From Vicinamibacteraceae bacterium (GTDB taxonomy: Bacteria; Acidobacteriota; Thermoanaerobaculia; Multivoradales; Multivoraceae), in contig JAAXHG010000060.1 of assembly GCA_012270995.1 (NCBI GenBank), forward strand, positions 1-64,000: a DNA stretch of 64,000 bases, read 5' to 3'. Of this stretch, positions 30,713 to 51,008 are shown one piece after another. The notes beneath the pieces were generated by a model. The model did no database searches. It saw only the letters and a list, made by a program, of their open reading frames with translations, and was not told where the DNA came from. The position numbers and the translations under genes are program-made. Each line of letters begins with the position of its first letter. Position 1 is the first letter of the stretch.

Positions 30713-32251
30713 ATGCGCGACAACGCCGGACTCATCCTGACCAAGCGCGCCTCCCTGTCGCCGGACATGGAGGGCTTCGTCGACGTCGAGAGCGAGCGCC
30801 GCTTCTCGTTCGCGGAGTGGAACCTGCGCTCGAACCGGACCGCCAACGCACTCCGGGAACTCGGCGTGGGCAAGGGCGACCGCGTGGCGCTGCTGCTGAT
30901 GAACGGCGTCGAGTACATGGAGACCTTTTTCGCCATCGCCAAGATCGGCGCCGCCTGCGTGCCGCTCAACTGGCGGCTGACGCCCGAGGAACTCTCCTTC
31001 ATCATCCGCGACGCCGGCGCCGGGACGCTCGTCTTCGGCGACGAGTTCCAGGTCCAGGTGCTGGACCTGATCGCGCGCGGCGGCGGCGAGAACGGCACGA
31101 AGGTCACGAGATGGGTCCACGTCGGGCCGGACGAGCAGCGGCCCGACGGTTGCCTCTCGTACCTCGACGCGACGACGGCGGCGAGCGACGCAGAACCCGC
31201 GATCGCGGCCGCGGACAGCGACCTCCTCTACATCATGTACACGTCGGGGACGACCGGTCTGCCCAAGGGCGCGGTCCACACCCACGAGTCCGCCCTGTGG
31301 GCTTCTCTCACGATCATGGCGACCGCCGACTTCCGCTACGGCGACCGCTTTCTGGTCTCCCTGCCGCTCTTCCACGTCGGCGCCCTGACCCCCGCGACCT
31401 GCAACGTGCACGCCGGCAGCACCAGCGTCGTGATGCGCTCCTTCGATCCCGTCCGGGTCTGGCGGTTGGTCGCCGAAGAGAAGATCGACATCATGCTGAA
31501 GGTCCCGGCGATGCTCAACTTCATGCTCCAGGTCTACGACCCGGAGCGCTGCCAGCACGAGCGGCTCCGCTGGTGCATGAGCGGCGCGGCGCCGGTTCCG
31601 GTCAGCCTGATCGAGGCCTACGACAAGCTGGGCATCGAGATCCACCAGGTCTACGGCCTGACCGAGACCTGCGGCCCGGCCTGCGTGATCTCGCCCGAAG
31701 ACGCGATCCGCAAGGCCGGCTCGACCGGCAAGGCCTTCTTTCACACCTCCGTGCGGGTCGTAGGCGCCGACGGCGCCGACTGCGCTCCCGGCGAGGCGGG
31801 CGAGGTCCTGGTCGCCGGCCGCCACCTGATGAAGGAGTACTGGAACCGTCCGGAGGCCACCGCCGAGACGATCAAGGACGGCTGGCTCTACACCGGCGAC
31901 GGCGCGGTGATGGACGAGGACGGCTTCGTCTACATCCAGGACCGGCTCAAGGACATGATCATCTCCGGCGGCGAGAACGTCTATCCCGCGGAGCTCGAAG
32001 AGGTCATCGGCCGCCACCCGAAGGTGCTCGAAGTCGGCGTCATCGGTCGCGAGAGCGAGAAGTGGGGCGAGTCGCCGGTGGCGATCGTCGTCCGCTCCGA
32101 CGAGAGCCTCGAAGGCGAGGAGATCCTCGACTTCTGCCAGGACAAGCTGGCCCGCTTCAAGCAACCGGTCGCGGTCCACTTCATCGACCAGTTGCCGCGC
32201 AACCCTTCGGGGAAGATCCTGAAGCGGTTGCTGCGCGAGCAGTTCAACTGA
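30713..32251 (+). CDS. AMP-forming acyl-CoA synthetase
   Basis: 512 aa from ATG 30713 with an AGGAG site upstream. ANL-superfamily enzyme that activates a carboxylic acid to its CoA thioester in the cytosol. Motifs: P-loop YTSGTTGLPKG, the gate region PLFHVGAL, A5 YGLTETCGP, A7 YTGDGAVMDEDGFVYIQDRLKDMI, A8 ISGGENVYPAELEE, and the catalytic Lys in PSGKILKR at the C-terminus. Length and motifs fit medium/long-chain fatty-acyl-CoA ligases. Placed after the PHA genes, it may supply acyl-CoA for polymer or beta-oxidation. Confidence 0.92.
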   Translation: MRDNAGLILTKRASLSPDMEGFVDVESERRFSFAEWNLRSNRTANALRELGVGKGDRVALLLMNGVEYMETFFAIAKIGAACVPLNWRLTPEELSFIIRDAGAGTLVFGDEFQVQVLDLIARGGGENGTKVTRWVHVGPDEQRPDGCLSYLDATTAASDAEPAIAAADSDLLYIMYTSGTTGLPKGAVHTHESALWASLTIMATADFRYGDRFLVSLPLFHVGALTPATCNVHAGSTSVVMRSFDPVRVWRLVAEEKIDIMLKVPAMLNFMLQVYDPERCQHERLRWCMSGAAPVPVSLIEAYDKLGIEIHQVYGLTETCGPACVISPEDAIRKAGSTGKAFFHTSVRVVGADGADCAPGEAGEVLVAGRHLMKEYWNRPEATAETIKDGWLYTGDGAVMDEDGFVYIQDRLKDMIISGGENVYPAELEEVIGRHPKVLEVGVIGRESEKWGESPVAIVVRSDESLEGEEILDFCQDKLARFKQPVAVHFIDQLPRNPSGKILKRLLREQFN

Positions 32252-32268
32252 TCACCAGGGAGGAGTGC

Positions 32269-33123
32269 ATGACGATGTTCCGTCTTCAGACCGCGGGCAC
32301 TGGTTTCCGGACCATCATGGGCAGCCTTCTGGCGGTCTTCGCCGCCGGCGTCGCCGCGGCCCGGACGGAGCCTCCCACCTACTACCGGGACGTGGCCCCG
32401 CTGTTGCAGAAGCACTGCCAGGACTGCCATCGTCCGGGCGGCGCGAACCTGGGCGGCATGGTGGCGCCGATGGCCTTGACGACTTACGAGGAGACCAGGC
32501 CTTGGGCTCGCTCCATCTCGCGGTTGGCGGCGGCGCGAATGATGCCGCCCTGGCACGCCTCGGAGGCTCAGCACGGCGTGTTCGAGAACGAGCGACCGGA
32601 GTACGACTTCAACTGGCAGACCACCTACATCTACGGGGAACGCAAGAAGATCCCTCAAGGCACGAAGGTGGTTCTGACGACCACGTACGACAACTCGGCC
32701 GGCAACATCCACAACCCCGATCCGGACGCCACCGTCCGTTGGGGCGAGGAAACGACCTACGAGATGAGCTACGGCTTCGTTGCCTACATCAACGAGTCGA
32801 ACCAGGGGCCAGCCGGCATCACGACCGCCCGTCAGGGGGGAATGACCGCCGTCGTCGCCTACTCCGACGCCCTCTCGGAGCATCGGGACGGCAAGATGCA
32901 ACTCGAGGAACTGAAGCGCGCTTCGAAGACCTCTCCCTCGATCGGCTCCGCCTCCAGAGTAGGCGCGGCGCCGCCGGAGCTGCTCGAGCGCTTCTTCGAG
33001 AGGCTTGACGCCAACGACGACGGCGCGGTCGACATGGACGAAGCGAGGGCCGCGGCGGGCCTGCTCCGCGCGTTCGCTTCCCAGGCCGGCGACGCTGGCG
33101 AACGCCGGCCGCGCCTCCCCTGA
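32269..33123 (+). CDS. heme-domain / copper-monooxygenase-like protein with internal deletion
   Basis: 284 aa from ATG 32269 (GGGAGGAG upstream). Residues about 35-95 form a planctomycete-type cytochrome c domain with CQDCH and a MMPPWHA segment. Directly after HGVFENERPEY it continues DFNWQTTYIYGERKKIPQGTKV ... DNSAGNIHNPDPDATVRWGEET, which in full-length relatives is the C-terminal part of an ascorbate-dependent monooxygenase-like region normally several hundred residues further on. The two copper-binding halves in between are absent, so this looks like an in-frame internal deletion. A C-terminal EF-hand-like loop (FERLDANDDGAVDMDEA) follows. It is probably exported and still binds heme but cannot be a working monooxygenase. 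Confidence 0.7.
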   Translation: MTMFRLQTAGTGFRTIMGSLLAVFAAGVAAARTEPPTYYRDVAPLLQKHCQDCHRPGGANLGGMVAPMALTTYEETRPWARSISRLAAARMMPPWHASEAQHGVFENERPEYDFNWQTTYIYGERKKIPQGTKVVLTTTYDNSAGNIHNPDPDATVRWGEETTYEMSYGFVAYINESNQGPAGITTARQGGMTAVVAYSDALSEHRDGKMQLEELKRASKTSPSIGSASRVGAAPPELLERFFERLDANDDGAVDMDEARAAAGLLRAFASQAGDAGERRPRLP

Positions 33124-33322
33124 TCTGACTCCCCCGACTCCGCCCCGTGCCTCCTCGGCGGAGCCGTAGGGCGGCCTCGTCCCTGCGTGAGCGCCGGCAT
33201 GCCCGCTTGTCTGGACGTTCGTGCCCATCACTCGGCCGAGCGGGCGGAACGATGATGCCGACGTGGGCGTCGCCGTCAGCCACAGCCGTCCGGGACCCTG
33301 GGGTACGCTCCCACCGGCCGTC

Positions 33323-34507
33323 ATGCTCACGCCCGAGGCACTCCACGACCTGATCGCGGCTCACGAGTCGGAACGGGTTGAACTCACCGTCTCGACGAAC
33401 GACACGGACAAGTTCGCCCAGGCGGTGTGCGCCTTCGCGAACGACTTCCCGAACCACCGTCGCCCGGGTTACATCCTGATTGGCGTGGACGACCGGAAGC
33501 AGGTGAGCGGCCTGACGGTCGACGACCTGCTGCTTCGCCGGCTCGGGGATCTGCGCTCCAACGTGAACATCGAACCTCTACCGGCGATCACGGTGCAGAA
33601 GCTCACGTTGCCCCAGGGCGACGTGGCGATCATCGAGGTCATGCCTTCCGACCTGCCTCCGGTTCGCTACAAGGGCACGATCTGGATCCGGACGGGTCCT
33701 TCCCGGCGAAGGGCGAATCGGCAGGAAGAGAGATTGCTGATCGAGAAGCGAGCCGCCAGCGCCAGCACGTTCGATGCAAGTCCGTGCCCGGGATCGAGCC
33801 TTCGAGACCTCACCCGCGACCTGTTCCTCGTCTCCTACCTGCCCGCCGCCGTCGAGCGCGCCGTTCTCGAGGAGAACGACCGACCCGTCGAGGAGCAGAT
33901 GGCGTCGCTCCGGTTGTACGACCTCGACGGCGACTGTCCGACGAACGCGGCGGTCCTGCTCTTCGGCAGGAACCCTCTGCGCTGGCTGCCCGGCGCCTGG
34001 ATTCAGTTCGTTCGTTGGGCGGGAACAACGATGGCGGCCGACCCGATCAACGAGAAGCGGTTCAGCGGCGACATGCTTACCGTCCTGCGCGAGCTGCAAG
34101 CGTTCCTCTCGTCCTCCACGCAAAGCCGGCCGGTCGCGCGATCGTCGCTCCGGGAACGATCGCTTGCCGACTATCCCGCCGTCGCCCTGCGTGAGCTGCT
34201 GCTGAACGCCATCATGCACCGCACCTACGAGTCGAACGCTCCGGTGCGGTTCTCCTGGTACGACGATCGCATTGAGATTCAGAGCACGGGCGGCCTTTAC
34301 GGATCGGTGTCGCCCGAGAACTTCCCGCGGCAAACGGATTACCGGAACCCGGTGCTTTCGGAAGCACTCGCGACTCTCGGTTACGTCAATCAGTTCGGGC
34401 GCGGCGTCATCCGTGCCCAGAACGCTCTCCGTGGCAACGGCAATCCGGATGCGGAGTTCACGTTCGAGCCTCACCATGTGCTGGTAACGATACGGGAACG
34501 ACAGTGA
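33323..34507 (+). CDS. AlbA_2/Schlafen-type DNA-binding protein with HATPase domain
   Basis: 394 aa from ATG 33323. N-terminal AlbA_2-like domain (SERVELTVSTND, FANDFPNHRRPGYILIGVDD, RYKGTIWIRTGPSRRRANRQEE at about 10-140), a winged-helix-like centre, and a C-terminal GHKL-type ATP-binding half (ALRELLLNAIMHRTYE, DDRIEIQSTGGLYG, GYVNQFGRGVIRAQNAL). Such proteins are annotated as putative transcriptional regulators and recur in mobile and defence regions. Its stop overlaps the parA start as GTGA. The 199 bases upstream (33124-33322) hold no evident gene. Confidence 0.83.
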   Translation: MLTPEALHDLIAAHESERVELTVSTNDTDKFAQAVCAFANDFPNHRRPGYILIGVDDRKQVSGLTVDDLLLRRLGDLRSNVNIEPLPAITVQKLTLPQGDVAIIEVMPSDLPPVRYKGTIWIRTGPSRRRANRQEERLLIEKRAASASTFDASPCPGSSLRDLTRDLFLVSYLPAAVERAVLEENDRPVEEQMASLRLYDLDGDCPTNAAVLLFGRNPLRWLPGAWIQFVRWAGTTMAADPINEKRFSGDMLTVLRELQAFLSSSTQSRPVARSSLRERSLADYPAVALRELLLNAIMHRTYESNAPVRFSWYDDRIEIQSTGGLYGSVSPENFPRQTDYRNPVLSEALATLGYVNQFGRGVIRAQNALRGNGNPDAEFTFEPHHVLVTIRERQ

Positions 34508-35484
34508 AGACCATCGCCTTCTTCAACAACAAGGGAGGCGTCGGCAAGACCACGCTCGTCTATCACTTGGCGTGGATGTACTCGGAGATAGGCTTTTCGG
34601 TTCTGGCCGCGGATCTTGACCCGCAGGCGAATCTGAGTACGTACCTGCTCGTTGAAGAACGGCTGGAAGAGCTGTGGCCGGACGAAGAGCACCACGACAG
34701 CGTGCTGGGCGCGGTCTCGCCGATACTGAAGGGCCTTGGAGACATCCGGGATCCGCACGTCGAGCGAATCGCGGACAATTTCGGTTTGCTGGTAGGCGAC
34801 CTGGGGTTGTCCCGGTTCGAGAAGAGACTGTCCGCGGCCTGGCCTGACTGTCTGGACGGAGATGAGTCAGCTTTCCGGGCCGAGTCGGCGTTTCACCGGC
34901 TGACGCTAAGGGCGGCCGAGAGCCTGGACGCCGACCTGGTACTGGTTGACGTTGGGCCCAACCTGGGTTCGATGAACCGTGCAGCGATCATTGCCGCGGA
35001 CCATGTCGTTCTACCCCTTGCGCCGGATCTGTTTTCGATCCAGGCGCTGCGGAACGTCGGTTCGATGCTGCACGAGTGGCGCGAAGGTTGGCGGGCTCGG
35101 TTGAAGAAGGCGCCGGATACCGATGAACTCCCCCTACCCCGAGGTGAGATGAAACCGCTTGGCTACATCCTGATGCAGCACGCCGTTTACGCGAATCGGC
35201 CGGTGAAGGCTTACCAGAAGTGGGCTGATCGCATTCCGGACGCCTATCGCGAGGAGGTAATGGACCATGACGGAGACACGGGATGCCTAGCGACGTTGAA
35301 GCACTATCGTAGCCTGATGGCGATGGCTCACGAGGCACGCAAGCCAATGTTCCATCTGCGCGCCGCCGACGGCGCTTTGGGAGGCCACTTGTACGCCGTG
35401 CAGGACTGCTATCGGGACTTCGAGGACCTGGCCAGGACCATCGCCGATCGTTGCGGCGTGACGGCGGCTCGGCCGTCCAAGTGA
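34504..35484 (+). CDS. parA: ParA/MinD-family ATPase
   Basis: 326 aa from GTG 34504. Deviant Walker A KGGVGKTT (10-17), Asp-rich switch (LAADLDPQANLSTYL), Walker B-like LVLVDVGPNLGSMNRAAI and PLAPDLFSIQAL. It is longer than MinD because of an insertion around residues 60-120. No ParB gene accompanies it; instead the coupled upstream AlbA_2 protein and the 16-bp-period repeat array just downstream could replace ParB and its centromere. A signalling role in a defence module is an alternative. Confidence 0.85.
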   Translation: MKTIAFFNNKGGVGKTTLVYHLAWMYSEIGFSVLAADLDPQANLSTYLLVEERLEELWPDEEHHDSVLGAVSPILKGLGDIRDPHVERIADNFGLLVGDLGLSRFEKRLSAAWPDCLDGDESAFRAESAFHRLTLRAAESLDADLVLVDVGPNLGSMNRAAIIAADHVVLPLAPDLFSIQALRNVGSMLHEWREGWRARLKKAPDTDELPLPRGEMKPLGYILMQHAVYANRPVKAYQKWADRIPDAYREEVMDHDGDTGCLATLKHYRSLMAMAHEARKPMFHLRAADGALGGHLYAVQDCYRDFEDLARTIADRCGVTAARPSK

Positions 35485-35616
35485 CGGCGTTGGACGGCAG
35501 TCGCCACCCGGCTTCACGGGTGCGGCTGCGTCAGCACCATTCCGCGGCGCCGCCCGGGAATCGCCACAAGGAAGAAGCACCCCCGGAACGCCGACATCAC
35601 CCGCTTCGCCCGCCTC

Positions 35617-35713
35617 TTGACAACATAGTGTATTGCAACACGGACATTTCACAACATCGGTTCTTGACGACATGGACATCTCACAGCAGGCGCACTTGAC
35701 AACATGACAACAT
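35617..35713. repeat. iteron-like array, 16-bp period, downstream of parA
   Basis: Units begin at 35617, 35632, 35648, 35664, 35680 and 35696 (spacing 15,16,16,16,16), with an extra half-unit at 35704. The conserved core is TTGACAACA or close variants (TTCACAACA, TTGACGACA, CTCACAGCA). The period is not a multiple of three, so coding is unlikely, and the stretch is more AT-rich than its surroundings. It lies in a 370-bp gap between parA and the convergent helicase gene. The rest of that gap (35485-35616 and 35714-35854) shows no gene. It could be a centromere-like, operator or replication iteron site. Confidence 0.75.
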
Positions 35714-35854
35714 GGATGCTGCCAGCAGTCCATCGGTTCGGCGCCTTCCGCGCTGGGCCGAACAGGAGGTCGCCGAGCCGGTAGACGCACCGCTCTTCGT
35801 CTCTTCTGGTCGGTTGGCTGGCGGCGATCTTCGGGTGAGCGAGCCCCTGCACCG

Positions 35855-38800
35855 TCACCCAGCGTCCAGAAGGTCTCGGAGGGAGGCCGGCGGCTGGGCT
35901 TCGGCAGGGGCGTCGTCTTCGTCGACGTCCCTGGGCGGCTGGAACAGCGGGCTGCCGGGGGACCAGAGCTCCAGACTCTCGGAATGCTCCTCGTAGTACT
36001 CCGGGTCGGTCGTCACGCGGAGCGTTTCCTTCATTCCGGGGGCGAGCAGACCGTACTCGCGAGCGCCCAGCGGGCGGATCTCGACGCCGGGCGGCATGAG
36101 GTCCGACCTTGAGATGACGCGGTCGAGGCCGGCCATGGTCAGGGGCGATTCGGGGAGTACCGGCATCTCCAGGTCTTCTTCGAGCACTTCGTCGAGGTCG
36201 AAGCCGGCGTCCTCGGCTTCGTCGAGCCGCCCTTCCAGGCGGTGGGCGAGGGAATGAGTGGAGGTCCGACCGGCGAGAATTTCCGCCGTGATCGAGCGCG
36301 GCAACTCCGCCAGGATCGGTTGCAGCCGTCCGACGACGGCCTGGAACAGGCCGATGCGTTGCCGCAACGCCTGGTACACGTCCGTCTCCACCGTGTCCTC
36401 GTAGTGCAGGTTGACGATCTGGATCGCCGGACTGCGCTGGCCCAGGCGGTCGATACGTCCGATGCGCTGTTCGACCCGCATCGGGTTCCACGGCATGTCG
36501 TAGTTGACGAGAGCGCCGCAGAACTGGAAGTTGAGGCCTTCCGAAGCCGCGTCGGTGCAGAGCAGGACGTCCGCGTCTCCATGGCGGAAACGTCGTTTGA
36601 CTTCGTCGCGGTCGATCGAGTCCCAGCCGCCGTCGGCGGTCGGCGCTTCGCCGCCGCGGCCCGAGTAGCACATCAGCTTGACGCCGGCGGCGTCGGCGCT
36701 CAGCGATTCCCGGAGGAAGTCCATCGTGTCGGTGTACTGGGTGAACACCATGACCTGGGCGTAGCCCTCGTCGCGCAGGCGGCCCAGTTCGGCCTTGAGC
36801 GCGGCCAGCTTGCTGTCGGGCGGCAGCCGCCGCGTTCGGTCGAGAAGCTCGGCGATCACGGTCTGCTCTTCCGCCTTCAGGACGGCGCGCTCGTTCTCGG
36901 CCAGGTCTTCGGCGTCCCAGTTCTGGGCGCGAATCTCGTCCTCGAAGATGTCTTCGTCGAGGTCGGTCCGGCGCTCGCGTTCGGGTTCGGCGAAGGCCTC
37001 CAGCCGATCCTGGAGCGTGTTGCGGAGCGCCTGGAAGCTGCTTGCCAGGCGCCGTCGGTAGGTAGTCATCACGAATCCCACCGCGTTGCGGTCGCGGGCT
37101 TCGGCCTTGTTGTAGGCGCCGGAGATGTACGTTCCGACGGCTTCGTAGAGCCGCCGTTCCTCCGCGCTCATGGGCACGAGGCGATCCGCGACGCTCCGTT
37201 CCGCGATGGACGCGTCCACCATTCCGCGCTCGCGGTAGGCGCGCAGCAGCTTGCGAGTATGGCGCGACACGAGGCGGCGAATCGGCGTGTTGGCCCGCGC
37301 GACGGCGACGGCCGCTCTCCGTTCCGGCGCCTCCAGCCGCCTCCGGGCGATGGAGGAGGGGCTTCTCAGTGCGCGCAGCACCTTGCCGGTTCCCAATGAC
37401 GACAATCCGGCAGCGCGTTGGGCCACGACCCTCGCGGTTTCTCCGTAGCGGACTTCGGTGGCCCGGAACATCTCCGCGATCCGGTCCAGCGCCTCGTGCG
37501 AGGGGTTCGGTTCTTCGATGTCCTCGAAGAACTTCAGGAACCGCTCCTGGGTCCACTCGGCCGGCAGGCCGAGGGGGGCCAGCAGATCCCAGACCTCGAC
37601 CGGGTGGACCTGCATCGGCGTCGCGGTCAACAGGACCAGTCCTTGGGTTCTCCGCGAGATGCCCTGGAGCAACCGGAGCATGGCGTTGGGTCGCTGCTTC
37701 CGCCGGCTGCCCCCGACTTCGCGTCGGCGGGCGTGGTGGGCCTCGTCGACGACGATCAGGTCCCAAGGTTCGGCGTCCTCGAGCAAGCTCCGGGATCGGT
37801 CGGAGCGTCGCATCAGATGGCTCGACGCGATGACGGCGGACGCCTTGTGCCAGTCGTCCCCGCCAACTTCGCGTTCGTTGGCGCCGCGAAGCGCCGGCGA
37901 CGGATAGCGCGCGAGCCTGCGACCGTCGTAGATCGGCCAGTTCAGGTTGAACTTCTCGCGCAACTCGATCTGCCACTGTCGGCACACCGCCTTGGGCGCG
38001 AGAACGAGGATGCGCCTGGCGCGTCCGGCCAGCCACGCTTGCCGAAGGAGCATCCCGGCCTGGATCGTCTTGCCCAGGCCCACCTCGTCGGCGATCAGCA
38101 ACCTCGGCGGCCATTCGGCGTAGAGCCGCTCGAAGGCCCGGATCTGGTGCGGCCAGGGAACGACGGCCGCGGTGGCTTCGCCGACCCGCCGGCCGCCGCC
38201 CGGAAGCGTCGGCGCCATTTGGATGAAGGACCACGCGCGGCTTCGGAGGTCCGGCTCGGCCCTGGCTGGCGGGGCGGGCGGCGGGGCGACGGGCGGTGGC
38301 GGCTCGTCGGTTGTCGCCGTCGGCTCGGCGGGCTTCAGCCGGGCGGGCTGGTCGCTTTCCGGCATGAAGCGCAGCAGATCCCGGCGCGCGGCCGCCGGCG
38401 CGTCGAGCACGACGACACGGGGCGACTCGTCGGCCCACAGGCGATCGAAGTTGGTCTGTTCGTGGGTCACCCGCTCGGGTTCCGACCCTTCTCCCCAGCT
38501 CTTGAAGACGCTGATGCTCTCCCAGTTCCGGCGCCACCCCGCCGCGGTCTCGTTGAGGCTGCCGGTCCAGGCGATCCGGTCGCCGATCCGATCTTCGATC
38601 ACGCCTGACTTCTCGTGGAAGATACCGTTCGCGGGGATGGGCTGTCGGTTCGCATCGCAAGGCACCGCGACCTTCACTTCGAGGTAGCCGCGCGCGACCA
38701 TCCAGGCCAGCAGTTCCAGGGCGTCGGCCGACTCCTGGTCCGCGGGTTCGAGCGGGATGGTCCCCAGGTGTTGCTCGACGGCGTCTCGAAGGTTCTCGCC

Positions 38801-39040
38801 TCGCTCGATCGCGTCGATTTCGGGCTGGTCCAGAGTACAGCCCACGAGCAGCCTCATCCGCCCCGCGTTGCGGACCAGCCCCTCGATGCCGCGCGCCGCC
38901 AGGGTCAGCGCTCCGGCCTTGAAGTACCCGGTCAGCCGGTCGTAGCGTTCCGCGTCGTCAAGCGCCGGGAGATAGAAGACCCGCACCAGGTCGCCGTCCT
39001 CCGGCGTGTACTTCAGGCGCCAGTCGTGGTCGCTCAACAT
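35855..39040 (-). CDS. PLD-domain SNF2-type helicase of a helicase-methylase-ATPase defence system
   Basis: 1061 aa. Residues 1-220 form a phospholipase D-like domain with one HKD set (His142, Lys144, Asp150 in FHEKSGVIED). A Pro-rich linker (about 240-265) leads to an SF2 helicase: Walker A DEVGLGKT 318-325, DEAH 432-435, LLTATPMQV, and the C-terminal RecA half with VMVFTQYTDTMDFL, LLCTDAASEGLNFQ and QRIGRIDRLGQ. This PLD-plus-SNF2 architecture accompanies DUF1156 methylase and DUF499 ATPase genes in defence islands. It is the only one of the three core genes that is intact here. Downstream of the Phd/RelE pair on the same strand. Confidence 0.88.
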   Translation of the reverse strand: MLSDHDWRLKYTPEDGDLVRVFYLPALDDAERYDRLTGYFKAGALTLAARGIEGLVRNAGRMRLLVGCTLDQPEIDAIERGENLRDAVEQHLGTIPLEPADQESADALELLAWMVARGYLEVKVAVPCDANRQPIPANGIFHEKSGVIEDRIGDRIAWTGSLNETAAGWRRNWESISVFKSWGEGSEPERVTHEQTNFDRLWADESPRVVVLDAPAAARRDLLRFMPESDQPARLKPAEPTATTDEPPPPVAPPPAPPARAEPDLRSRAWSFIQMAPTLPGGGRRVGEATAAVVPWPHQIRAFERLYAEWPPRLLIADEVGLGKTIQAGMLLRQAWLAGRARRILVLAPKAVCRQWQIELREKFNLNWPIYDGRRLARYPSPALRGANEREVGGDDWHKASAVIASSHLMRRSDRSRSLLEDAEPWDLIVVDEAHHARRREVGGSRRKQRPNAMLRLLQGISRRTQGLVLLTATPMQVHPVEVWDLLAPLGLPAEWTQERFLKFFEDIEEPNPSHEALDRIAEMFRATEVRYGETARVVAQRAAGLSSLGTGKVLRALRSPSSIARRRLEAPERRAAVAVARANTPIRRLVSRHTRKLLRAYRERGMVDASIAERSVADRLVPMSAEERRLYEAVGTYISGAYNKAEARDRNAVGFVMTTYRRRLASSFQALRNTLQDRLEAFAEPERERRTDLDEDIFEDEIRAQNWDAEDLAENERAVLKAEEQTVIAELLDRTRRLPPDSKLAALKAELGRLRDEGYAQVMVFTQYTDTMDFLRESLSADAAGVKLMCYSGRGGEAPTADGGWDSIDRDEVKRRFRHGDADVLLCTDAASEGLNFQFCGALVNYDMPWNPMRVEQRIGRIDRLGQRSPAIQIVNLHYEDTVETDVYQALRQRIGLFQAVVGRLQPILAELPRSITAEILAGRTSTHSLAHRLEGRLDEAEDAGFDLDEVLEEDLEMPVLPESPLTMAGLDRVISRSDLMPPGVEIRPLGAREYGLLAPGMKETLRVTTDPEYYEEHSESLELWSPGSPLFQPPRDVDEDDAPAEAQPPASLRDLLDAG

Positions 39041-39056
39041 CGGGAACTCCGGCGGC

Positions 39057-39338
39057 TCACGTCCGGCGGCGTCGCAGCCGTTCGTACACGTCGCCGCGCG
39101 ACGCGACGACGAGCACGACGACGATCAGCCGATTCTCTTCCACGGAGTAGCAAACCCGCCATTCACGAACCCGGATCCGCCAGGCGTTCCGCACGGCCTT
39201 GAGCTTGGCGGCCCCGGCAGGACGGGGGTTGACCGCCAATCGGGCGATGGCGTCCGAGATCTCTCGAAGCGCTCGCCGATCACGGATCCGCCGGAGATCC
39301 CTCCTGGCGGCCTGTGCGAACTCGATCCGATAGGTCAA
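39057..39338 (-). CDS. relE: RelE/ParE-family toxin
   Basis: 93 aa, basic. MTYRIEFAQAARRDLRRIRDRR, AIARLAVNPRPAGAAKLKAVRNAWRIRVREWRVCYSV and the final strand IVVVLVVASRGDVYERL are the RelE/ParE fold. RelE toxins cut ribosome-bound mRNA and ParE toxins poison gyrase; family-level sequence alone does not decide. The start overlaps the antitoxin stop (ATGA). The helicase gene begins 16 bases downstream, so the pair is embedded in the defence operon. Confidence 0.88.
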   Translation of the reverse strand: MTYRIEFAQAARRDLRRIRDRRALREISDAIARLAVNPRPAGAAKLKAVRNAWRIRVREWRVCYSVEENRLIVVVLVVASRGDVYERLRRRRT

Positions 39339-39655
39339 AGCCCGAGCTCGGACCTGACCTCCTCGAAGCTGACGCCGCCGTTCGCCCGGTAGTCCGCAAG
39401 GGCGTCGCGGGCGTCCAGTTCATCCAGCAGATCTTCAAGAGACCCAAGCGCCGTCAGATCGCTTGCGGAGACCAGCCCGGCAATCGTCCTGCCGTTCTTG
39501 CGGATGGCGATGCGCTTCCCCTCGGCTTCGACGATCCGGCTGACCTCATCGAAGTTCTCCAGCAACGCGGCCGAGGAGAGAACCGTTGGCGCCGCCGCCT
39601 CCCGAGGCTTGGCGGGGGCGTTCGTCCGTTCGGATGCTGGTTCGGGATTCGTCAC
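39335..39655 (-). CDS. Phd/YefM-type antitoxin
   Basis: 106 aa. After a Pro/Ala-rich tip the Phd/YefM fold is visible (VLSSAALLENFDEVSRIVEAEGKRIAIRKNGRTIAGLVSASDLTAL, about residues 25-70), with an acidic C-terminal helix pair (LEDLLDELDARDALADY) that would cover the toxin. It is cotranscribed and 4-base overlapped with the RelE/ParE toxin. The 139 bases upstream (39656-39794) contain no gene. Confidence 0.84.
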   Translation of the reverse strand: MTNPEPASERTNAPAKPREAAAPTVLSSAALLENFDEVSRIVEAEGKRIAIRKNGRTIAGLVSASDLTALGSLEDLLDELDARDALADYRANGGVSFEEVRSELGL

Positions 39656-39794
39656 CGGGGGAGTATAGCCCCGCAGAGCGACAGGCCCGCTCGTCTCGCG
39701 GTGGCGCCCGCCGTTGCCCGAACCGGCGATGCGCCGGCTGCGGGCCGGGCCGCCGTCTCCGGGCCCGCGCTTCAGCGGTCCGAGCGCATGGCGC

Positions 39795-42700
39795 TCAGTC
39801 GGCGTCCTGCCGCCAGATCGCGAGTTGCTCCGGTTCGTCGATCCGGTCGGCGAAGGCGAAGCGCCGCAGGTTGTAGAGGGCCTCGAAGTCGTTGCTGGAA
39901 GCGGCGATCTCGCCCTTGAGCGCGACGCCGGTGAAGGCCGAGGACACGGGGAGCACTTCGAGGACCGCCTCGAAGGCGGCGAGGAAGAGCGGGTCCTCGG
40001 CGATGTCGATGCGCGCGAGCAGGTCGCGGGCCTCCTCCAGCGAGCGGTTGCGCGCCATGTGCGCCGCGTGATGGAGGGCGTCGATCATGCCGCGGGAACC
40101 GTCCGCCGACCCGAGGGCGCCGCGGGCCGCCCTGCGTTCGCTGTCCCAGAGCTGCAGGGCGCCGCTCTTCTTGAGTGCGAGCCGACCCACGACGTCGCGG
40201 TCCAGATCGACGCCCGTGGCCCGGGCGAGGCGGAGCGCCTCGTCGTAGGAGAACGCCGGCGCCTTGAACGCGTCCCAGGCCAGCACGAAGAAGGCGGTCG
40301 CCGGATCGAGGTCGACGTTGGCCTTGAGATGGGTCAGTTGCTCCAGCCGCCAGCGCTTCACTTCCCGGCGGGCCACGTCCAGCGCATCCTCGGGGGTCAC
40401 GGCGTAGGGGTCCGGCTCTTCGAGTTGCAGCCTTGCCTGGCGGCCTCGCCGCTTGGCGTTGGCGGGCGGTTCCCGGGGCGTGCCGCGCCGCAGCGGCCAG
40501 TGCTCGGAGAACCGCTGGAGCGCGGGGCCGAAGCAGGCGAGGTAGAGGTCCACGCCGCCGATGCCGGCCTCCTGGAACTCGCCGACGCGGGCGCGGACCG
40601 CCCCGGCGACTTCCGGCTCCACGTCTTCCCAGTACGTCGCGCCGTCGCGCAGTTCGGCCGCGCCGCGGTCGTCGGGCGGCCGGCAGACGAGGAAGATCGT
40701 GCTCTTGGCGGCCGCCTTGTCCTTGATGTGCAGGCTGCCGGCCGCCTCCGTGTTGATCGGCCAGGAGGCGGTGATCCGGAAGCCCGCTTCCATGAGTCCC
40801 GTCGTCAGCGCGTCCCAGGCGCCGGAGGCCTTGTGGGTGAACATCAGGGTCATGACGCCGTCGGGCCTCAGCACCCGGGCGCACTCGCGGAAGATCGCCG
40901 CCATCCGCTCCTGGTAGTCCCGCCCGGCCAGCGCCTTCGCGCCCTTCTCTCCCTTGAACCGGGCCGGGTTGGCGACCGCCTCGTTCTCCTTGTCCGTCAG
41001 GCGGCGTCGGAAGAGCTCGGGGAAGACGTGCCCGGCCGTGCGCTTGAGCCAGACGTAGAAGAAGTCAGCCAGCTCGGCGTACATCACGTTGTCGTAGTAG
41101 GGCGGGTCCATGACGACGACGTCGATGGAGGCGTCCTCGATGTGGTCGAGGCTGTCGGCGGGCTTGCAGGTGATGGTGACCGGGGGCCATGCCGGGCCGC
41201 CGGCGCCGGGCGCCGGGGAAGCCGCCGCCGCGGGAGCGGCGGGTCCCTGAGTCCCGCCGGCGACTTCGCCGTCATCGCCGCGGCGGCGCGAGACTCGGGC
41301 GGCATCGGCGGGACCGCCGGAGGTCGGCGATCCGTCGTTCGGGGCGGCGAGACGGAGCTGGTTCGCGGGCGCGGCTCCGTTGGGAGCAGCGTCGTCGCCG
41401 CGGACGAGTTGGACGAGTTCCTTGATGCACTTGGCGGTCTGGCCGATCGCCCAGTCGTAGCCGAGGCCGGTGATGAGCGGCGCCATTTCGCCGTAGGACC
41501 ACTTGAAGGAGAAGTCGTGCCGGTCGAACGTGCCCGCGAGGACCTCGCGACCGGCATGCCACCGTGTCATTCGCGCGCTGTAGTTCAGGAGCTTGTCCAG
41601 TGCGAGAGCGAGATAGCCGTAAGCCGCCTGCCGAACCTCGTCCAGCCGCCCCGCCGACCGGTCCGCTTCGAGCATCTCGCGGAAGACCTCGACGCTCGTG
41701 CCGTGGCAGAGCAGTTGCCGGGGCGAGAACAGGTCGCGCCACGCGGTCATGCCGTAGCGGATCGGCTCGGCGGTCTTGGCACCCTCGGGAAGCCGTTCAT
41801 TCGGCACGATGTCGAACGCCTCCCAGGCCGGCAGCTTCCCGGCGAGGCGCTCGGCGATCTTCGCCGAGTTGTCGTCTTCGGGCCGCGGCGCCCGGTAGCC
41901 CCGCACCCACTTGTCCTTGCCCCGTTTGCCGGACTTGAGCATCCTGCCCGGCACGCGCCGCTTGTAGACCACCGCGTAGAGCTGCTCGCCCATCCCGCCC
42001 GCCTGGGCCTGACGCTTGATCTCGTCGCCGTCGATCACCCGCCCGCAGTCCGGGAAGGGGCACGTCCCGTCGCTGCGCGCGACCGTCCCGGCGGACTGTT
42101 CGTGAGCCGACTCGACGATCTCGAACGAGCACGTTCGGCCTGCGGTTCCGGGACCGCCCGCGACCTCCGGCTGCAAGCGGACGCCCGTTCCGCCCGGCGC
42201 GAGCCGCCAGTTCGGCGACAGCGGCACGAGGCCCTCGCAGTACGGGCAGGTCACGGTGCGCGCCCAGAGATAGCCGTCCGGTCGGCAGTCGTCCTCGGGC
42301 TCGGACGAGAACACGCCCTTGAGCCGCTTCCGTACCTCGGCGGCAAGCCGCTGCCCGACCTGCTCGAAGCGCCTTTCCACTTCATACCCGTGCATGGCGG
42401 GCCACTCCAGAGTAGCCCGCTCGATCAGGGCCGCGACGGTGTTCAGGTCGTTGGCGACGGTGGCGAATCCCAACCGAACCGCCTCGAACGGAACGCTGCC
42501 GCCGCCTGCGGTGGGATCGAGCACCACAGGCCGTCACGGCGCCGACTCGTCGTCTATCCACCCTTTCCGCCCCGACGCCGCAGTCCGGTCCCTGGTCGGG
42601 GCCACTCCTCGTCGAGCCACCGTTCCCGCTCCTGTTGGCCCGTTCCTCCAGAGCTTCTGCTCGGCCTTCGACGGCGTGTAGCCGAAGGCCCGCGGGTAAC

Positions 42701-42995
42701 CGTAGGCGTTGGCGCCAAGTCGTTCACCCGTCCGGTTCGCCGCGGCGATGCGTTTCTTCGCCGCCACCGGATCCCCGTGAATCCCCAGCGCGTGCAGGAA
42801 CCGCCCGCGGTCCGCGTCCTCCGGCAGCAGCGAGGCGAGCACGGCGGCGCGGGAAGCGACCAGCGGCCGCCGCGCCCACCACACGTGCAGCCGGTTCGGC
42901 GCCGGAAACGGCGTCATCGGCGTCCGCTCCCGGACGCTCTCGATCCCCAGCTCGGCGATCGGCAGCCAGCGTTCGATGAGGCGGGTGTCGGTCAT
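39795..42995 (-). pseudogene. DUF1156 adenine-specific DNA methylase split by an in-frame TGA
   Basis: A single frame of 1067 codons from ATG 42995 carries TGA at codon 154 (42536-42534). Before it is the DUF1156 N-terminus (TDTRLIERWLPIAELG, PAPNRLHVWWARRPLVASRAAVLASLLP), then three codons after the TGA comes VLDPTAGGGSVPFEA (methylase motif I, codons 158-172). Zn-ribbon cysteines follow (CPYC near 250, CPFPDC near 312), and the catalytic motif DPPYYDN near 630. A GTG at 42527 could restart translation but would lack DUF1156. In the family this methylase pairs with a DUF499 ATPase and SNF2 helicase. A Pro/Ala-rich insert of about 60 residues (codons about 530-600) precedes motif IV. Confidence 0.85.
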
Positions 42996-43039
42996 CGTTC
43001 GGATTCAGGTCCACGGAAGCTCTGCAAGGGCGCGTCTCC

Positions 43040-43990
43040 TCAGCGCCGTGTGAGTTTCTGCCCGATGTACACGACGTAGATGGGAGTTTCGGGCCACGAG
43101 AAGTGAATGCGGAGCTGTTGGATCTTGACCTTGCCGTGCCACGGACAGAAGAGGGTCTCGCCGGGTTTGTCGGGATGCCGGAAGGTCATCTTCTGGCCGA
43201 ACTTCACCTTCTCATCGTCGGAGGAGTCGGAGAACCATGCCTTCCGGCCGACGAAGTGCTTCTCGCGCAGTTGCCGCTTCTTGCGCGTCCCATCCCGCAG
43301 GCCCGCGAAGCGATTCAGAACGTCGAGCCGCCTCAGCAACTCGCGGACCGCGCCGTCGCTGAAAGGAAGACCGTCCAGGGGATCCATGCAGCCGGGAGCG
43401 AAGCGCAGGTTCGGGTAGCGGCGGATCTCGCGCTGGAAATCCCACCACGTGCGGACGCTGGGTGGAATCGCCCGGAGACCCTCCGCAAGACTCTCCGGGT
43501 CTCTCCAGTTCGGCAAGTCCGCGCGTTCCGCGGGTGGTTCTTCGTCCCCGTGCCGGCGAAAGACGCGGACCGGCGTGTAGTCCCAGTTCGACGGCTTCAG
43601 GCTGACCAGCCCGCAACCGGACCCGCTGAGAGAGCGGAAGGCGGCTTCACCCACCGACGAGTCCGTGACCACTTCCCCGCGGCACTGCAGCCACTCGTCG
43701 GGACCATGACGGCGGGAATCGTCCCAGAAGGGGCCGCCCTTGTTCAGCCAGGAGAGGAACAGACGCCGCTCGTCCGGCGGGACTGCGCGCAGGGCTGGTT
43801 CAAGACGGACGCCGGGTCGAGGCTCGACGTTGCGAAAGCCGCGCGCACAGTGGATCATGTTGCAGTGGCGTTGTGCGACGTTCCACATCCTCATCAGTCG
43901 GCTGATCGCGTCCCGAAAGGACCAATCGTCGTGGAACTGCCCGTGAACCGAAAGTTCGTTCGCCAGGAGATCCACCGCCGTCAGTCCCAT
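43040..43990 (-). CDS. unknown protein of the DUF262-DUF3696 operon, 316 aa
   Basis: Soluble, mixed charge, many Trp and Arg. No enzyme motif is recognised. Visible pieces: a helical N-terminus (DLLANELSVHGQFHDDWSF, SRLMRMWNVAQRHCNMIHCARGF), a middle with repeated Trp (WLNKGGPFWDD, GPDEWLQC, WDYTP, RTWWDFQREIRR), and a strand-rich C-terminus (FCPWHGKVKIQQLRIHFSW, IYVVYIGQKLTRR). That tail resembles the C-terminal strand of small proteins found beside ATPase genes in defence regions, but I cannot name it. It starts inside the last 10 bases of the DUF3696 ATPase gene. It could be the effector or specificity subunit. Confidence 0.72.
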   Translation of the reverse strand: MGLTAVDLLANELSVHGQFHDDWSFRDAISRLMRMWNVAQRHCNMIHCARGFRNVEPRPGVRLEPALRAVPPDERRLFLSWLNKGGPFWDDSRRHGPDEWLQCRGEVVTDSSVGEAAFRSLSGSGCGLVSLKPSNWDYTPVRVFRRHGDEEPPAERADLPNWRDPESLAEGLRAIPPSVRTWWDFQREIRRYPNLRFAPGCMDPLDGLPFSDGAVRELLRRLDVLNRFAGLRDGTRKKRQLREKHFVGRKAWFSDSSDDEKVKFGQKMTFRHPDKPGETLFCPWHGKVKIQQLRIHFSWPETPIYVVYIGQKLTRR

Positions 43991-45255
43991 CCCGCCAGGG
44001 CGCTCAGGTCCTTGTCGAACTGGTCGAAGAAGCCGCCGGGCCAGAAGTCCAGCCCCCCTTCGGCGTCCATCGTCGGCGTCTGAACCTGCGGCGCGTCTTC
44101 GGAACGCGGCGAGAAGAAGTGGAGCGCGGCCCGGTCCGGCGCCAGGATCCCGGCCTTGACGGCGCGGCGGATGCCGTTCAGCACATGGTCGCTGTGGCTC
44201 TCCACGAGCACCTGAACGCCCGCCGCCGCGACCTCGGCCAGAAAATGGCCCATGCGGGCCTGGCCCGAAGGGTGAAGGTGAACTTCGGGATTCTCGATGA
44301 GGAGCAGGGCATCGTGCCCGGCGGACAACGCGGCGATGACGATCGGAAGTACCTGGGTCAGCCCGAAACCCGTGTGAACGGGGCGGTGGAACTCGGTGTC
44401 GTCCGATGTCCTGATGCCGAGCATGACGACGCCTGCCGCCGGCAGTTGTTGCACGTCCAGGACGCAGCCGGGGAAGAACGACGCCATTCGCGCCTCGATC
44501 TGCCGGAAGCGGGTGGGCGGTGCGTCGCCCAAGACCAGACCGGGGAGGACCTTGTCGCTTCCGCCTGCTTCCAGCAGCGCGGCCGCGTTCTCGCCGGCGG
44601 GGCCGATGGCGAAGTCCTCTTCCGAGTCGCGGAGCCGATAGGAGTCGCGCGGCCCCAGGCGCTCGGCCGTGAGGTAGTGAAGCCGTTCCAGTCGGTCGCG
44701 GAAGCCGGGATCCTCCTCGAGCGAGAGCAACACCGGGCCTTCTCCGTCCGGGCCCACCGAACGGCTCGTGACTTCGTCCTCATAGCGCAAGCACGCGAGT
44801 CGCAACGACCGGTCGGCCGGTTCGCCCTCGAAGTCCCATGAGTAGCTAGCCGTGCCCCTGGCCGCGCGGCGGGCTTCGATGTCTCGCGCGAGTTCTTCCA
44901 GCGTGGGTGCCGAGCCGGAACGCCCGGCGCGCGACTTTTCCCGGACGATTCGGAGATCAGGTCGCCCGGCGGGTCTCTTGACGAAGGAATCCAGAATGGT
45001 GATGGAGCAGGATCGCCTCCCGTGAACCTGGTCGATCACGTCGGCGGCCCTGCCCAACCTCAGCACCGGCCCGTTGAGCAGCAGTCGGCTCTCCCAAGGC
45101 GAGACATTCACCGACTGATGGAGCAGCCCGATCGCTTGCAGAACCGTGCTCTTGCCGGACGCGTTGGCACCCGCGAGCAGCGTCAGGGGCGCGAGCGGCA
45201 GCTTGAGCAACTCGAAGCACTTGAAGTGCCGGAGCTCAATCTGCGTCAGCACCAA
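43981..45255 (-). CDS. DUF3696 AAA ATPase
   Basis: 424 aa. ABC/OLD-like ATPase: N-terminal LTQIELRHFKCFELLKLPL, Walker A GANASGKST (29-37), Walker B-type LLLIENPEVHLHPSGQ near 315-330, VESHSDHVLNGIRRAV, and the C-terminal DUF3696-like tail with FFDQFDKDL. No TOPRIM nuclease part is seen. The start (TTG 45255, or GTG 45252) lies 20 bases inside the end of the DUF262 gene, and its own stop lies 10 bases inside the 316-aa gene. This tight nesting indicates a three-gene operon that likely acts as one complex. Confidence 0.85.
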   Translation of the reverse strand: MVLTQIELRHFKCFELLKLPLAPLTLLAGANASGKSTVLQAIGLLHQSVNVSPWESRLLLNGPVLRLGRAADVIDQVHGRRSCSITILDSFVKRPAGRPDLRIVREKSRAGRSGSAPTLEELARDIEARRAARGTASYSWDFEGEPADRSLRLACLRYEDEVTSRSVGPDGEGPVLLSLEEDPGFRDRLERLHYLTAERLGPRDSYRLRDSEEDFAIGPAGENAAALLEAGGSDKVLPGLVLGDAPPTRFRQIEARMASFFPGCVLDVQQLPAAGVVMLGIRTSDDTEFHRPVHTGFGLTQVLPIVIAALSAGHDALLLIENPEVHLHPSGQARMGHFLAEVAAAGVQVLVESHSDHVLNGIRRAVKAGILAPDRAALHFFSPRSEDAPQVQTPTMDAEGGLDFWPGGFFDQFDKDLSALAGWD

Positions 45256-46478
45256 GCGTCTCCCGGAACATGCGGCCGGCCATCTTGAACCGGCGCCGGA
45301 CCTTCCTCGCGTCGTTCGGGCCGTACGTAATCGCTTCGTTGAACTTCTCGTCCTGGAGCAGTGCGAAGAATGCGGCCCTGAAGGCCTCGGCTCGTTCCAG
45401 CACGCGCATCACGTCGTAGGGGGCCAGACCGGTCGACATCACGTCCCACAGCGATGCGTTGATGACGCCCCTCCGATCCTGGTCGGGCTCGTGTTTCCTG
45501 AAGGCCTGCCTTTGAAACAACATGTGGTTGTTCGTCAACGTTCGGTGGAAAACCTCGCGGACTTCGTCGAGCGCCTCGTCGCCTGCCCGATTCATGCGGC
45601 CAAGCGCTCTGGCGAGGAAGCGGTCCATGTCTCCGTCGTAGTCCTCGATGGGCAGCAGATGAAAGGCGCAGAAGCGGTTCACGAACTCCCGGTCCCGCAT
45701 CGTCTTCTGCTTGAGACTGCCGCCCGTGGCCTTCATGAACAGGTCCGTGGCGGCTTCTTTCGCCAGGAACCGCGTGGCCGGCCCCATGTAGAGGCAGTTC
45801 CGCATCTGCTGCCGCGTGAGCGGTACGCCGCTGTTCACGCGGTCGAAGATGTCCAGCCGTGCCCGCTCCGGCACCTTCGAGTCGATGGAGTAGAGCGTCA
45901 GGCTGCAGTCTTCGACCCGGTTCTGGAGCTTCTCCGGGAGATCGGCGAACCGTTTTCCGTCCAGGTCCGGCCGGTCGGGAAGCCGGAGCTTCAACTTGTC
46001 GGCCAGAAAGTGCTGGAAGGTCGTGAGGCGTTGCAGACCGTCCACGACGACGACCTTCCCGTCATCGTTCTCCGCCAGGTAGAGAACGGGAAGGGGAATC
46101 CGCATCAGGATGGACTCGATCAACTTGCTCTGGGTGGGCACGTCCCAGAGAAAGTCGCGTTGGAAGTCCGGATTCAGGATGTATGTGCCGCGATCGATGC
46201 GCCGAACCACGTCGAGGACGGTGCGGGGCTCCTGCCGGATCAGGATGGAGTCGATCGGATAGTCGCCCCAGGGAGCGCCCTTCTCGTCGAGGCCCTCGAT
46301 CTCCTCATCCGCCGATCGGGCGCTGGCGGCGGCCTTCTCGTCGTCCGGAGCGGGTTCGGGCGTCCGGCAGAGCCTCGGAAGCGCTGTCCGGGTCGAGATT
46401 CGACGCCGTCCTTGTTTCTTCCACGAGTGACGCCGGCTCGGGACGCTGCCGGGCCTCTGACGGCTCGCTGTCGGACAT
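45236..46478 (-). pseudogene. DUF262 (ParB-like) protein with probable 1-nt frameshift
   Basis: The body is clear DUF262: RRIDRGTYILNPDFQRDFLWD, SKLIESILMRIPLPVLYLAEND, VVVDGLQRLTTFQHFL, RVNSGVPLTRQQMRNCLY. DUF262 proteins are ParB-like nucleases or NTP-dependent regulators and partner with ATPases in defence. The natural N-terminus (MSDSEPSEARQRPEPASLVEETR from ATG 46478) is in another frame from the body; the switch sits near 46350-46380 where PDARTR changes to PEPAPDDEK. The total length is 3n+1, so one base is inserted (or two lost). Without correction the body has no obvious start before GTG codons near VLDVVRR. Confidence 0.72.
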
Positions 46479-46688
46479 CGGCGGGAGCCTAGCGCACCGG
46501 TCAGATTTGGCGACCGGTTGCAACGACCTTGACGAGGTCGGCCCGTGCATGGACGCGAGCAGCGTGCTTCGACGCCTTGACCGACGCCCGGGCAGGCAGT
46601 CCGGCACGTCCAGTGTGCGGCCGGTTCCATTCCAGTGCCATGCGCGAGAGCACGGCGGAACCGCTGCGAATGCTAGGGTCGGAGCGCT

Positions 46689-46940
46689 ATGGCGGTGACG
46701 ACGTTCGACACCCACGCTGCCGTGCGCGCCCTGGAGAAGGCGGGCTTGGAGTCCGCGCAAGCCGAGGCGATCACGGCGACGATCCGCGGCGCCGTCACGG
46801 AGGGCGTGGCGACACAGGCGGACCTGGCGGCGCTGGAGACCCGGTTGACGGAGAGGATCAACGCTCAGACGTGGCGGGTTCTCGGGGGTGTCTTCGCGCT
46901 GTTGGCGCCATGGACGGCGGTGGACCGGCTGCTTGGTTAG
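46689..46940 (+). CDS. small coiled-coil membrane protein, DUF1640-like
   Basis: 83 aa on the opposite strand to its neighbours. The N-terminal part resembles the DUF1640/CCDC90-like pattern (FDTHAAVRALEKAGLESAQAEAI), followed by a short coiled coil (ADLAALETRLTERINAQ) and a single C-terminal membrane segment (RVLGGVFALLAPWTAVDRLL). Such proteins often lie beside mobile or defence genes in bacteria. Function unknown. The 210 bases between 46479 and 46688 hold no other gene. Confidence 0.62.
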   Translation: MAVTTFDTHAAVRALEKAGLESAQAEAITATIRGAVTEGVATQADLAALETRLTERINAQTWRVLGGVFALLAPWTAVDRLLG

Positions 46941-47015
46941 CGTTAGCCGTCCCATGCGGCGCTTTCGAGGGCCGAGGCGGTTCCGTTCGCTTGCGCCGGC
47001 AGCCGCCGGTCGGCT

Positions 47016-47603
47016 TCAGCGGTCCGGCTCCGTCAACAACATCCGGAGCGCCGCCAGCACTCGCCGCGGCCGCCGCCGGTGCATCGCCATGCCGAGCCAG
47101 TACGCGGCCTCCTCGCGGTCCATTCTCTCGATGCCCTCGGCGACCGCGCGCATCCGTTCCCGGCTTCGCATCGGTGCGATGGCGCGGAACATGAGGCCCA
47201 GGTGGAGGGCGAGATCTTCGCTGAGAGCGAGTCCGGTCATCGGCTGATTCGCGGGATGTGCGAGCTTGATGCCGGCTTGAGAGAGTCGCCGGAGGACGCG
47301 GTGTTCGACCAGTTCCAGGTTGCGGCCCTTGAGGCCGGCTACGCGGGTGGGCGCGGTGATCTGCGGCGTCGAGGCCGCGGGGAGTTGCCAGACCTCGTAG
47401 CTGGTGAGCGCCGCGCTCAGCGGGCGGACTCGCAGTTCGTAGCTGGGCGCCGAGTGTCGGCGGTCGGTCGAAGCCAACCCAGCCGCTCGCCGGGTGCGCT
47501 GGGCTTCCGACCCGCCCGAGTCCGCGGCCTTTCCGACGGGCCCGGGTACGCGCGGCCTCCTGCGCGCCGCCCGCGACGCCGCGGCTTGCGAGCGCGGCGT
47601 CAT
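47016..47603 (-). CDS. small partner protein following the DUF499 ATPase
   Basis: 195 aa. The ATG overlaps the DUF499 stop (ATGA), so it is coupled to it. The N-terminal 50 residues are Arg/Ala-rich. Then come SYELRVRPLSAALTSYEVWQLP, and a helical basic C-terminus (LVEHRVLRRLSQAGIKLAH, YWLGMAMHRRRPRRVLAALRMLL). DUF499 ATPases in helicase-methylase-ATPase loci are usually followed by a small protein like this. I do not recognise an enzymatic motif. Likely an accessory subunit. Confidence 0.68.
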   Translation of the reverse strand: MTPRSQAAASRAARRRPRVPGPVGKAADSGGSEAQRTRRAAGLASTDRRHSAPSYELRVRPLSAALTSYEVWQLPAASTPQITAPTRVAGLKGRNLELVEHRVLRRLSQAGIKLAHPANQPMTGLALSEDLALHLGLMFRAIAPMRSRERMRAVAEGIERMDREEAAYWLGMAMHRRRPRRVLAALRMLLTEPDR

Positions 47604-50600: not shown

Positions 50601-50647
50601 ATGTCCTCGCGGGGTTGGCAGGTCTCGAAAATCGTAGGGGCGGCCAC
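47600..50647 (-). pseudogene. DUF499 AAA+ ATPase with two compensating frameshifts
   Basis: From GTG 50647 the frame gives an N-terminal ATPase: SYGGGGKTHG (Walker A, about 85-94), LILLDELSVYL (Walker B) and VARKATLLNPTADDE-like helices. At about 49330 the frame breaks (HHGG should continue LPPYAEYAARTIFMHTLAFNEP, seen one frame over): one base is missing. The second frame runs to about 48025, where it breaks again; TLTIRLFEPRDAFPMVNAIG then continues in the third frame to the stop at 47600, needing one base removed. Length is 3n because the two lesions cancel. The ATPase is about 1015 aa when restored. A methylase/helicase system cannot work without it, unless these are sequencing errors. 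Confidence 0.83.
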
Positions 50648-50720
50648 TTCGGCGGAAGGATAGCGCCGTTGCCGGGCCTGGCCGCCGTGACGGGTGATTC
50701 GCCGTTGGATGCGGGCTCGT

Positions 50721-51008
50721 TCAATCGTCCTTCCGCGCCGGGAACTCCTCCAGAAACCAGAACTCTCCCTCGACCGCGCCAGCCTCCTCGCCGACCGCGG
50801 CCGCCTCGGGCGTCGCCATGTAGGCCTCCGCCCTCGCCCGGTCCTCGACGCCGAGGATGAAGAACACCTCGTCGGCCCTGTCGGCCGAGCGCCAGACGCG
50901 CTGGACCGACAGGCCGGCGGCCAGGCCCGCGGCCTTCTGCTTGTCGAAGACGCGCTTCCAGTGGTCGATGTCCTTCACGCGATTACGAACGAGCAGAACC
51001 ACGGGCAT
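50721..51008 (-). CDS. small ferredoxin-fold protein (ABM/DUF1330-like)
   Basis: 95 aa. PVVLLVRNRVKDIDHWKRVFDK, SVQRVWRSADRADEVFFILGVEDRARAEAYM and a C-terminal strand (EGEFWFLEEFP) suit a dimeric alpha/beta ferredoxin-like barrel of the antibiotic-biosynthesis-monooxygenase superfamily. Catalytic activity cannot be predicted. It is a single gene between the DUF499 gene start and the MazEF pair. Confidence 0.72.
   Translation of the reverse strand: MPVVLLVRNRVKDIDHWKRVFDKQKAAGLAAGLSVQRVWRSADRADEVFFILGVEDRARAEAYMATPEAAAVGEEAGAVEGEFWFLEEFPARKDD

Follow-up and report, generated by a model that had tools for sequence, protein, structure and literature searches.

The 64,000-nucleotide stretch of DNA that we analyzed (the window) contains a gene for a cytochrome c/PHM-like monooxygenase protein from which the middle is missing (Table 1). 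The internal deletion is real, neat, and in frame, and the gene is probably a decaying, displaced extra copy whose reading frame remains open. Most likely, it represents a type of gene that is already known, not a novel type of protein. The open reading frame encodes, in order, a signal-like start, CQDCH, MPPW, the stretch beginning PEYDFNWQTTY, and an EF-hand-like tail, i.e., the 284-aa frame is as an earlier note on this DNA had described it, with an N-terminal CQDCH domain joined to the last monooxygenase-like strands. The frame is open throughout its 284 codons, so that a broken reading frame, one mark of a pseudogene, is lacking; another such mark, clear sequence loss, is present, with 228 residues absent versus relatives of about 515 aa.

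Table 1. Features of the internally deleted gene and its surroundings (positions in the window)
Feature	Position	Strand	Remarks
Acyl-CoA ligase, conserved left neighbor	30713..32251	+	
Shine-Dalgarno-like stretch AGGGAGGAG	32257..32265	+	Directly 5′ of the ATG, judged by eye
Internally deleted cytochrome c/PHM-like monooxygenase gene	32269..33123	+	284 aa plus stop
Signal-peptide-like start, residues 1-31	32269..32361	+	By eye; helix 12-28 in the model
Heme domain, residues 33-109	32365..32595	+	CQDCH at 50-54, MPPW at 92-95
Deletion join, R109/P110	32594..32596	+	684 bp (228 codons) absent versus full-length genus relatives
PHM-like C-terminal domain remnant, residues 110-175	32596..32793	+	Keeps M166
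EF-hand-like tail, residues 192-284	32842..33120	+	Second loop DANDDGAVDMDE canonical by eye
Variable island beside the reduced gene	33302..50730		AlbA_2/Schlafen-type protein, ParA-like ATPase, Hma-like and Nsn-like defense genes

A single full-length gene on contig C106 of the same genome (L002, 514 aa) matches both halves of the reduced protein and has 228 residues between the matching regions. Alignment with this gene and three genus orthologs (60 to 62% identity), a comparison that the earlier note had proposed, gave a single large gap between R109 (32593-32595) and P110 (32596-32598), and the best DNA matches break off at 32594 and continue from 32596. This gap amounts to 228 codons, i.e., 684 bp, in frame, versus all 18 measured genus members of the nearest full-length subfamily (one gene per genome, 18 genus genomes), which bears out the claim that several hundred residues are absent. 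The join had been placed after HGVFENERPEY; that it is in frame still stands, and its position is to be corrected, since PEY corresponds to the PNY, PEY, PRY, or PKY directly before the D(F/Y) of DFNWQ in full-length relatives and thus belongs to the 3′ part, with the true join three codons upstream.

The short direct repeat that was to be looked for at the join was not found in any of eight full-length family members, from which the actual parent of the reduced gene may differ: across the break points 7 to 11 of 30 bases are alike, and the longest shared word is 5 to 8 bases within 40 bp. We infer that the deletion was repeat-free (illegitimate), and the data put no date on it within the branch of the reduced gene. 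These short words also bear on the alternative that a mis-join in the assembly dropped the middle of a full-length gene, an error that the fragmentation of the genome (201 contigs) would favor, as would the still greater fragmentation of G012 (490 contigs), the holder of another internal deletion described below. However, an assembly mis-join usually needs a long shared word, and nothing longer than these 5 to 8 bases is shared by the relatives at both break points; in addition, the other matches to either half in the assembly have at most 68% amino-acid identity, and so there is no near-identical copy that was collapsed. We judge an assembly error improbable.

A CxxCH heme-binding motif is present in the reduced protein (CQDCH, residues 50-54), and we take the Met of MPPW to be a possible distal heme ligand. 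Pfam matches to Cytochrome_CBB3-like (residues 42-98), the end of Cu2_monoox_C (107-177), and EF-hand (239-262) were all under the curated cut-offs. PF13442 scored 19.9 bits against a cut-off of 27, and Cu2_monoox_C (PF03712) scored 12.6 bits against a cut-off of 23 that is a weak test, with a full-length relative scoring 22.6 and thus itself just under it. The EF-hand-like tail that had been noted is indeed present, and it is weak: one loop is canonical by eye and one is disturbed, with three additional residues at the first loop and 20 between the loops when compared with relatives, and every Pfam EF-hand match lies under its cut-off. Since full-length relatives have the same kind of tail, it is not an addition to the reduced gene. 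The NCBIfam match to the XopAW model is a weak EF-hand one (19.4 bits versus a cut-off of 120) and offers no lead. The third-position GC of the gene is 0.87; a promoter scan found no promoter-like sites, and a terminator scan found 1 terminator-like site versus 0.6 in shuffles.

The lost middle includes most of the residues equivalent to copper ligands. In 39 full-length relatives, drawn from several phyla, the columns HH, HY, HxH, and EM do not vary. A profile built from them hits solved PHM/DBH chains with E values of 4.7e-13 to 1.2e-9, and these columns align on HH, HY, HTH, and EM of PHM. When the residues that we take to be the PHM copper ligands are mapped on this alignment, five of the six ligand-equivalent columns (H210, H211, H248, H319, and H321 in the full-length relative L050) fall in the deleted part, and the sixth is kept, M401 of L050 being M166 of the reduced protein, aligned with the CuM Met column. 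The CuB ligand columns (HH and H) are therefore all deleted, and the CuM set (HxH and Met) has lost HxH and keeps the Met column alone. Copper chemistry is not expected once the PHM copper ligands are lost, and with five of the six deleted, copper monooxygenase activity is, judging from the sequence, not expected of the reduced protein. A model of L050 (mean pLDDT 87) has DBH/PHM as its best PDB matches, at E values down to 1.7e-12 and with modest TM-scores of about 0.4-0.6. PHM is described in PMC8812541 as a double jelly-roll protein.

An AlphaFold model of the reduced protein (50 alignment rows; mean pLDDT 70.7, pTM 0.42) contains helices in the heme domain and the tail; those at 38-49 and 73-88, in the heme domain, belong to blocks with a pLDDT of 85-93. 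In residues 110-175 this model has no strand of at least three residues, and its 10-residue blocks there span pLDDT 56-87, some of them at 79-87, although the gapped full-length rows in the input may undervalue the remnant; the matching region of the full-length model forms four strands (355-363, 368-375, 391-393, and 402-409). A Foldseek search of the reduced-protein model against the PDB gave no match at E ≤ 0.001, and the first ones listed were EF-hand proteins.

The reduced gene is located in a variable spot, displaced from its full-length counterparts. DNA similarity to the loci of relatives stops at the stop codon of the acyl-CoA ligase, a close ortholog of which is present in 11 of the 12 genus relatives searched (20 relatives in the set). 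Directly 3′ of this stop codon, a BCCT transporter frame is present in 9 of these 11 (in L129, the contig end truncates it), L138 (G009) has a decayed BCCT remnant from 2330 with pieces missing and frame changes, and L136 (G003) has around 30 bp and then the right-hand neighbor. A tblastn search with the reduced protein at this locus matched none of the 11 relatives (the L129 stretch shows about 0.75 kb only), and the genome under study contains no close BCCT copy, the best being 31% identical. Part of the island is present at the equivalent place in G001 and G004. It is these variable neighbors, and the absence of the gene in the 11 relatives, that place it in a variable spot.

The island itself contains a defense region (35858-50647), in which the best PADLOC models are HmaB for a methyltransferase (39798-42527) and HmaC for 49109-50647. 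The SNF2/PLD helicase at 35858-39040 scores best with BrxHI/II and only fifth with HmaA, and the Hma label thus rests on context. Nsn-like genes (NsnA, B, and C) are present at 43043-46630, and the HmaC/DUF499 gene is divided between two frames at about 49310-49340, with profile positions 8-429 matching the frame 49109-50647 and 440-695 matching the frame 47730-49523.

The nearest rows for both halves belong to the C106 subfamily, in agreement with the neat deletion that had been proposed, and in a joint quick tree the reduced gene is sister to 14 genus rows of that subfamily (SH-aLRT 90). Trees of the separate halves, built on 79 and 81 columns, place the C-terminal half inside the ortholog group, with G013 as its neighbor (99/83; flagged for a long branch), and the heme half beside that group, without resolution. 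This difference, and the presence of 15 other places with both halves of the family in the same genome, would suit a chimeric gene that arose when two distinct paralogs recombined; given the shared nearest subfamily and the joint tree, such an origin is highly improbable, and the separate half trees do not favor it. The reduced gene has an end branch of 0.29 for the heme half and of 0.69 for the remnant.

Mean dN/dS of the reduced gene versus 16 orthologs is raised in each of its parts: 0.18 in the heme half (bootstrap 0.07-0.33; mean among orthologs 0.08), 0.45 in the remnant (0.23-0.76; 0.15 among orthologs), and 0.40 in the tail (0.20-0.72; 0.20 among orthologs), values obtained by a simple counting method from 65 to 77 codons per part, on a branch part of which predates the deletion. 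On average, this is two to three times the dN/dS among orthologs, yet below 1, and single ortholog pairs reach 0.21, 0.49, and 0.81 in the heme half, remnant, and tail, i.e., the means of the reduced gene are within the range of pairs. Constraint on the reduced gene therefore looks weaker, not gone. Both the heme half and the remnant half keep all 12 of the 12 columns with at least 90% conservation among 99 relatives, full retention that is itself seen in 72 of these 99 relatives for the heme half and in 64 for the remnant half.

We searched for other reduced forms using the reduced protein (P0001) in 60 relatives (E ≤ 1e-20, with at most the best 41 candidates per genome scored, among the matches listed), 21 genus genomes (E ≤ 1e-46, all candidates scored), 148 class genomes (E ≤ 1e-34, at most the best 16 scored), and 396 phylum genomes (E ≤ 1e-22, at most the best 6 scored), and using a profile of the two halves joined in silico (A2) in the 21 genus genomes (E ≤ 1e-25, all candidates scored) and 148 class genomes (E ≤ 1e-22, at most the best 31 scored, among the matches listed). 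At E ≤ 1e-46, the reduced protein was matched in 1 of the 21 genus genomes, its own, and no second intact joined form occurred among the scored candidates and matches listed in the genus, class, and phylum searches, which weaker joined forms could escape. Among the A2 matches listed, three rows crossed the join, those of the reduced gene, G012:C290, and G006:C15. The last was rejected as a reduced form, being a full-length gene with a frameshift, and so was G022:C23, where a P0001 row crossed the join over 48 residues, yet the gene is full-length; other P0001 rows extend 20-28 residues beyond the join, within frames of 440 aa or more. A contig search with patterns from the reduced protein, one of them spanning the join, gave 84 stretches in 67 loci, and the ORFs of the collected loci (single-half ORFs dropped) included 99 with both halves besides the reduced gene, none of them joined. 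The viral contigs searched contained no relative of the reduced protein, and the plasmids searched gave no match to it at E 1e-5.

Damaged copies do recur in the family, and three, including the reduced gene, are internally deleted. G012:C290 (L151), which belongs to another paralog, has a 687-bp internal deletion at about 1925 versus all four relatives compared, with a 1-base overlap at the join, and after the join it has one base fewer than its relatives, giving a frameshift and early stop. In the genome under study, G000:C58 (L154, about 4999-5840) is also damaged: over 230 residues it shares 93% identity with a relative, but roughly 110 residues are absent after the heme motif and the frame changes. 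G016:C207 is a frameshifted copy. The reduced gene differs from these other damaged copies by keeping its frame. Recurrence of reduced forms, which the earlier note had asked about, thus comes down to one other joined form in the 21 genus genomes, G012:C290, which is broken. As a side observation, its 687-bp deletion and the 684-bp one in the reduced gene are nearly equal in length, and no repeat accounts for this.

The idea of a naturally reduced heme protein is not supported by this survey, with no intact reduced homolog among the scored candidates and listed matches and the two other internally deleted copies broken. If functional, the reduced protein would be a monoheme cytochrome c that is exported, has a calcium-binding tail, and transfers electrons without the copper domains. 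The open frame with its start signals, CQDCH and MPPW, the fully retained conserved columns, the dN/dS below 1, and the confidently modeled heme-domain helices all speak for it, and the frame, columns, and dN/dS are points against decay, as are the third-position GC and the fair pLDDT of parts of the remnant. Its match in a single genus genome at E ≤ 1e-46, the lack of a second intact form among the scored candidates and listed matches, the remnant modeled without strands, and a first EF loop disturbed by inserted residues speak against it, and we judge a functional protein unlikely. It is more doubtful still that the deletion created a new, selected cytochrome of this kind from a PHM-like oxygenase; we keep a functional cytochrome in view because the frame and conserved columns are intact. 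Such a selected cytochrome would, if real, be a redox protein that arose from an enzyme whose catalytic core was lost.

Decay of an extra copy is the reading we prefer. The parent would have been a member of a multi-copy exported family with a monoheme cytochrome c domain, a two-domain PHM-like copper monooxygenase, and an EF-hand-like tail, from which one 684-bp in-frame deletion would have taken the first copper domain together with the beginning of the second. The displaced copy, in its variable spot adjoining a phage-defense island, would then be decaying, presumably in that order of events and without function. Its product, if translated, could still undergo export and bind one heme covalently, and without the residues for the CuB/CuM pair it should have no monooxygenase activity. 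Alone, the reduced gene matters little: it exemplifies the loss of a core by clean internal deletion with the frame still open, and an automatic pipeline would annotate it as a small heme protein. Of greater use is the side result that this lineage holds many full-length cytochrome c-PHM-like proteins, including those at the 15 other places in the same genome, with a family profile significantly related to animal PHM/DBH and with all six copper-ligand columns invariant in the 39 relatives. Our literature search found no description of this family in the lineage, which is not proof of its absence from print.

Compared with known systems, the closest is the C106 protein, which is 61% identical to the reduced protein over shared columns and, like it, has a signal-like start, a heme domain, the last PHM-like strands, and an EF-hand-like tail; unlike the reduced protein, it has the 228 residues with five copper-ligand-equivalent His, and its gene is on a different contig. 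The remnant resembles PHM/DBH in aligning with the end of the C-terminal domain (Cu2_monoox_C), including the CuM Met column, whereas the reduced protein lacks the first domain, the CuB ligands, and the CuM His ligands. G012:C290 is similar to the reduced gene in its in-frame loss of the middle, in another paralog, and differs from it in break points that are 22 and 24 codons earlier, in the loss of MPPW, and in its frameshift and early stop.
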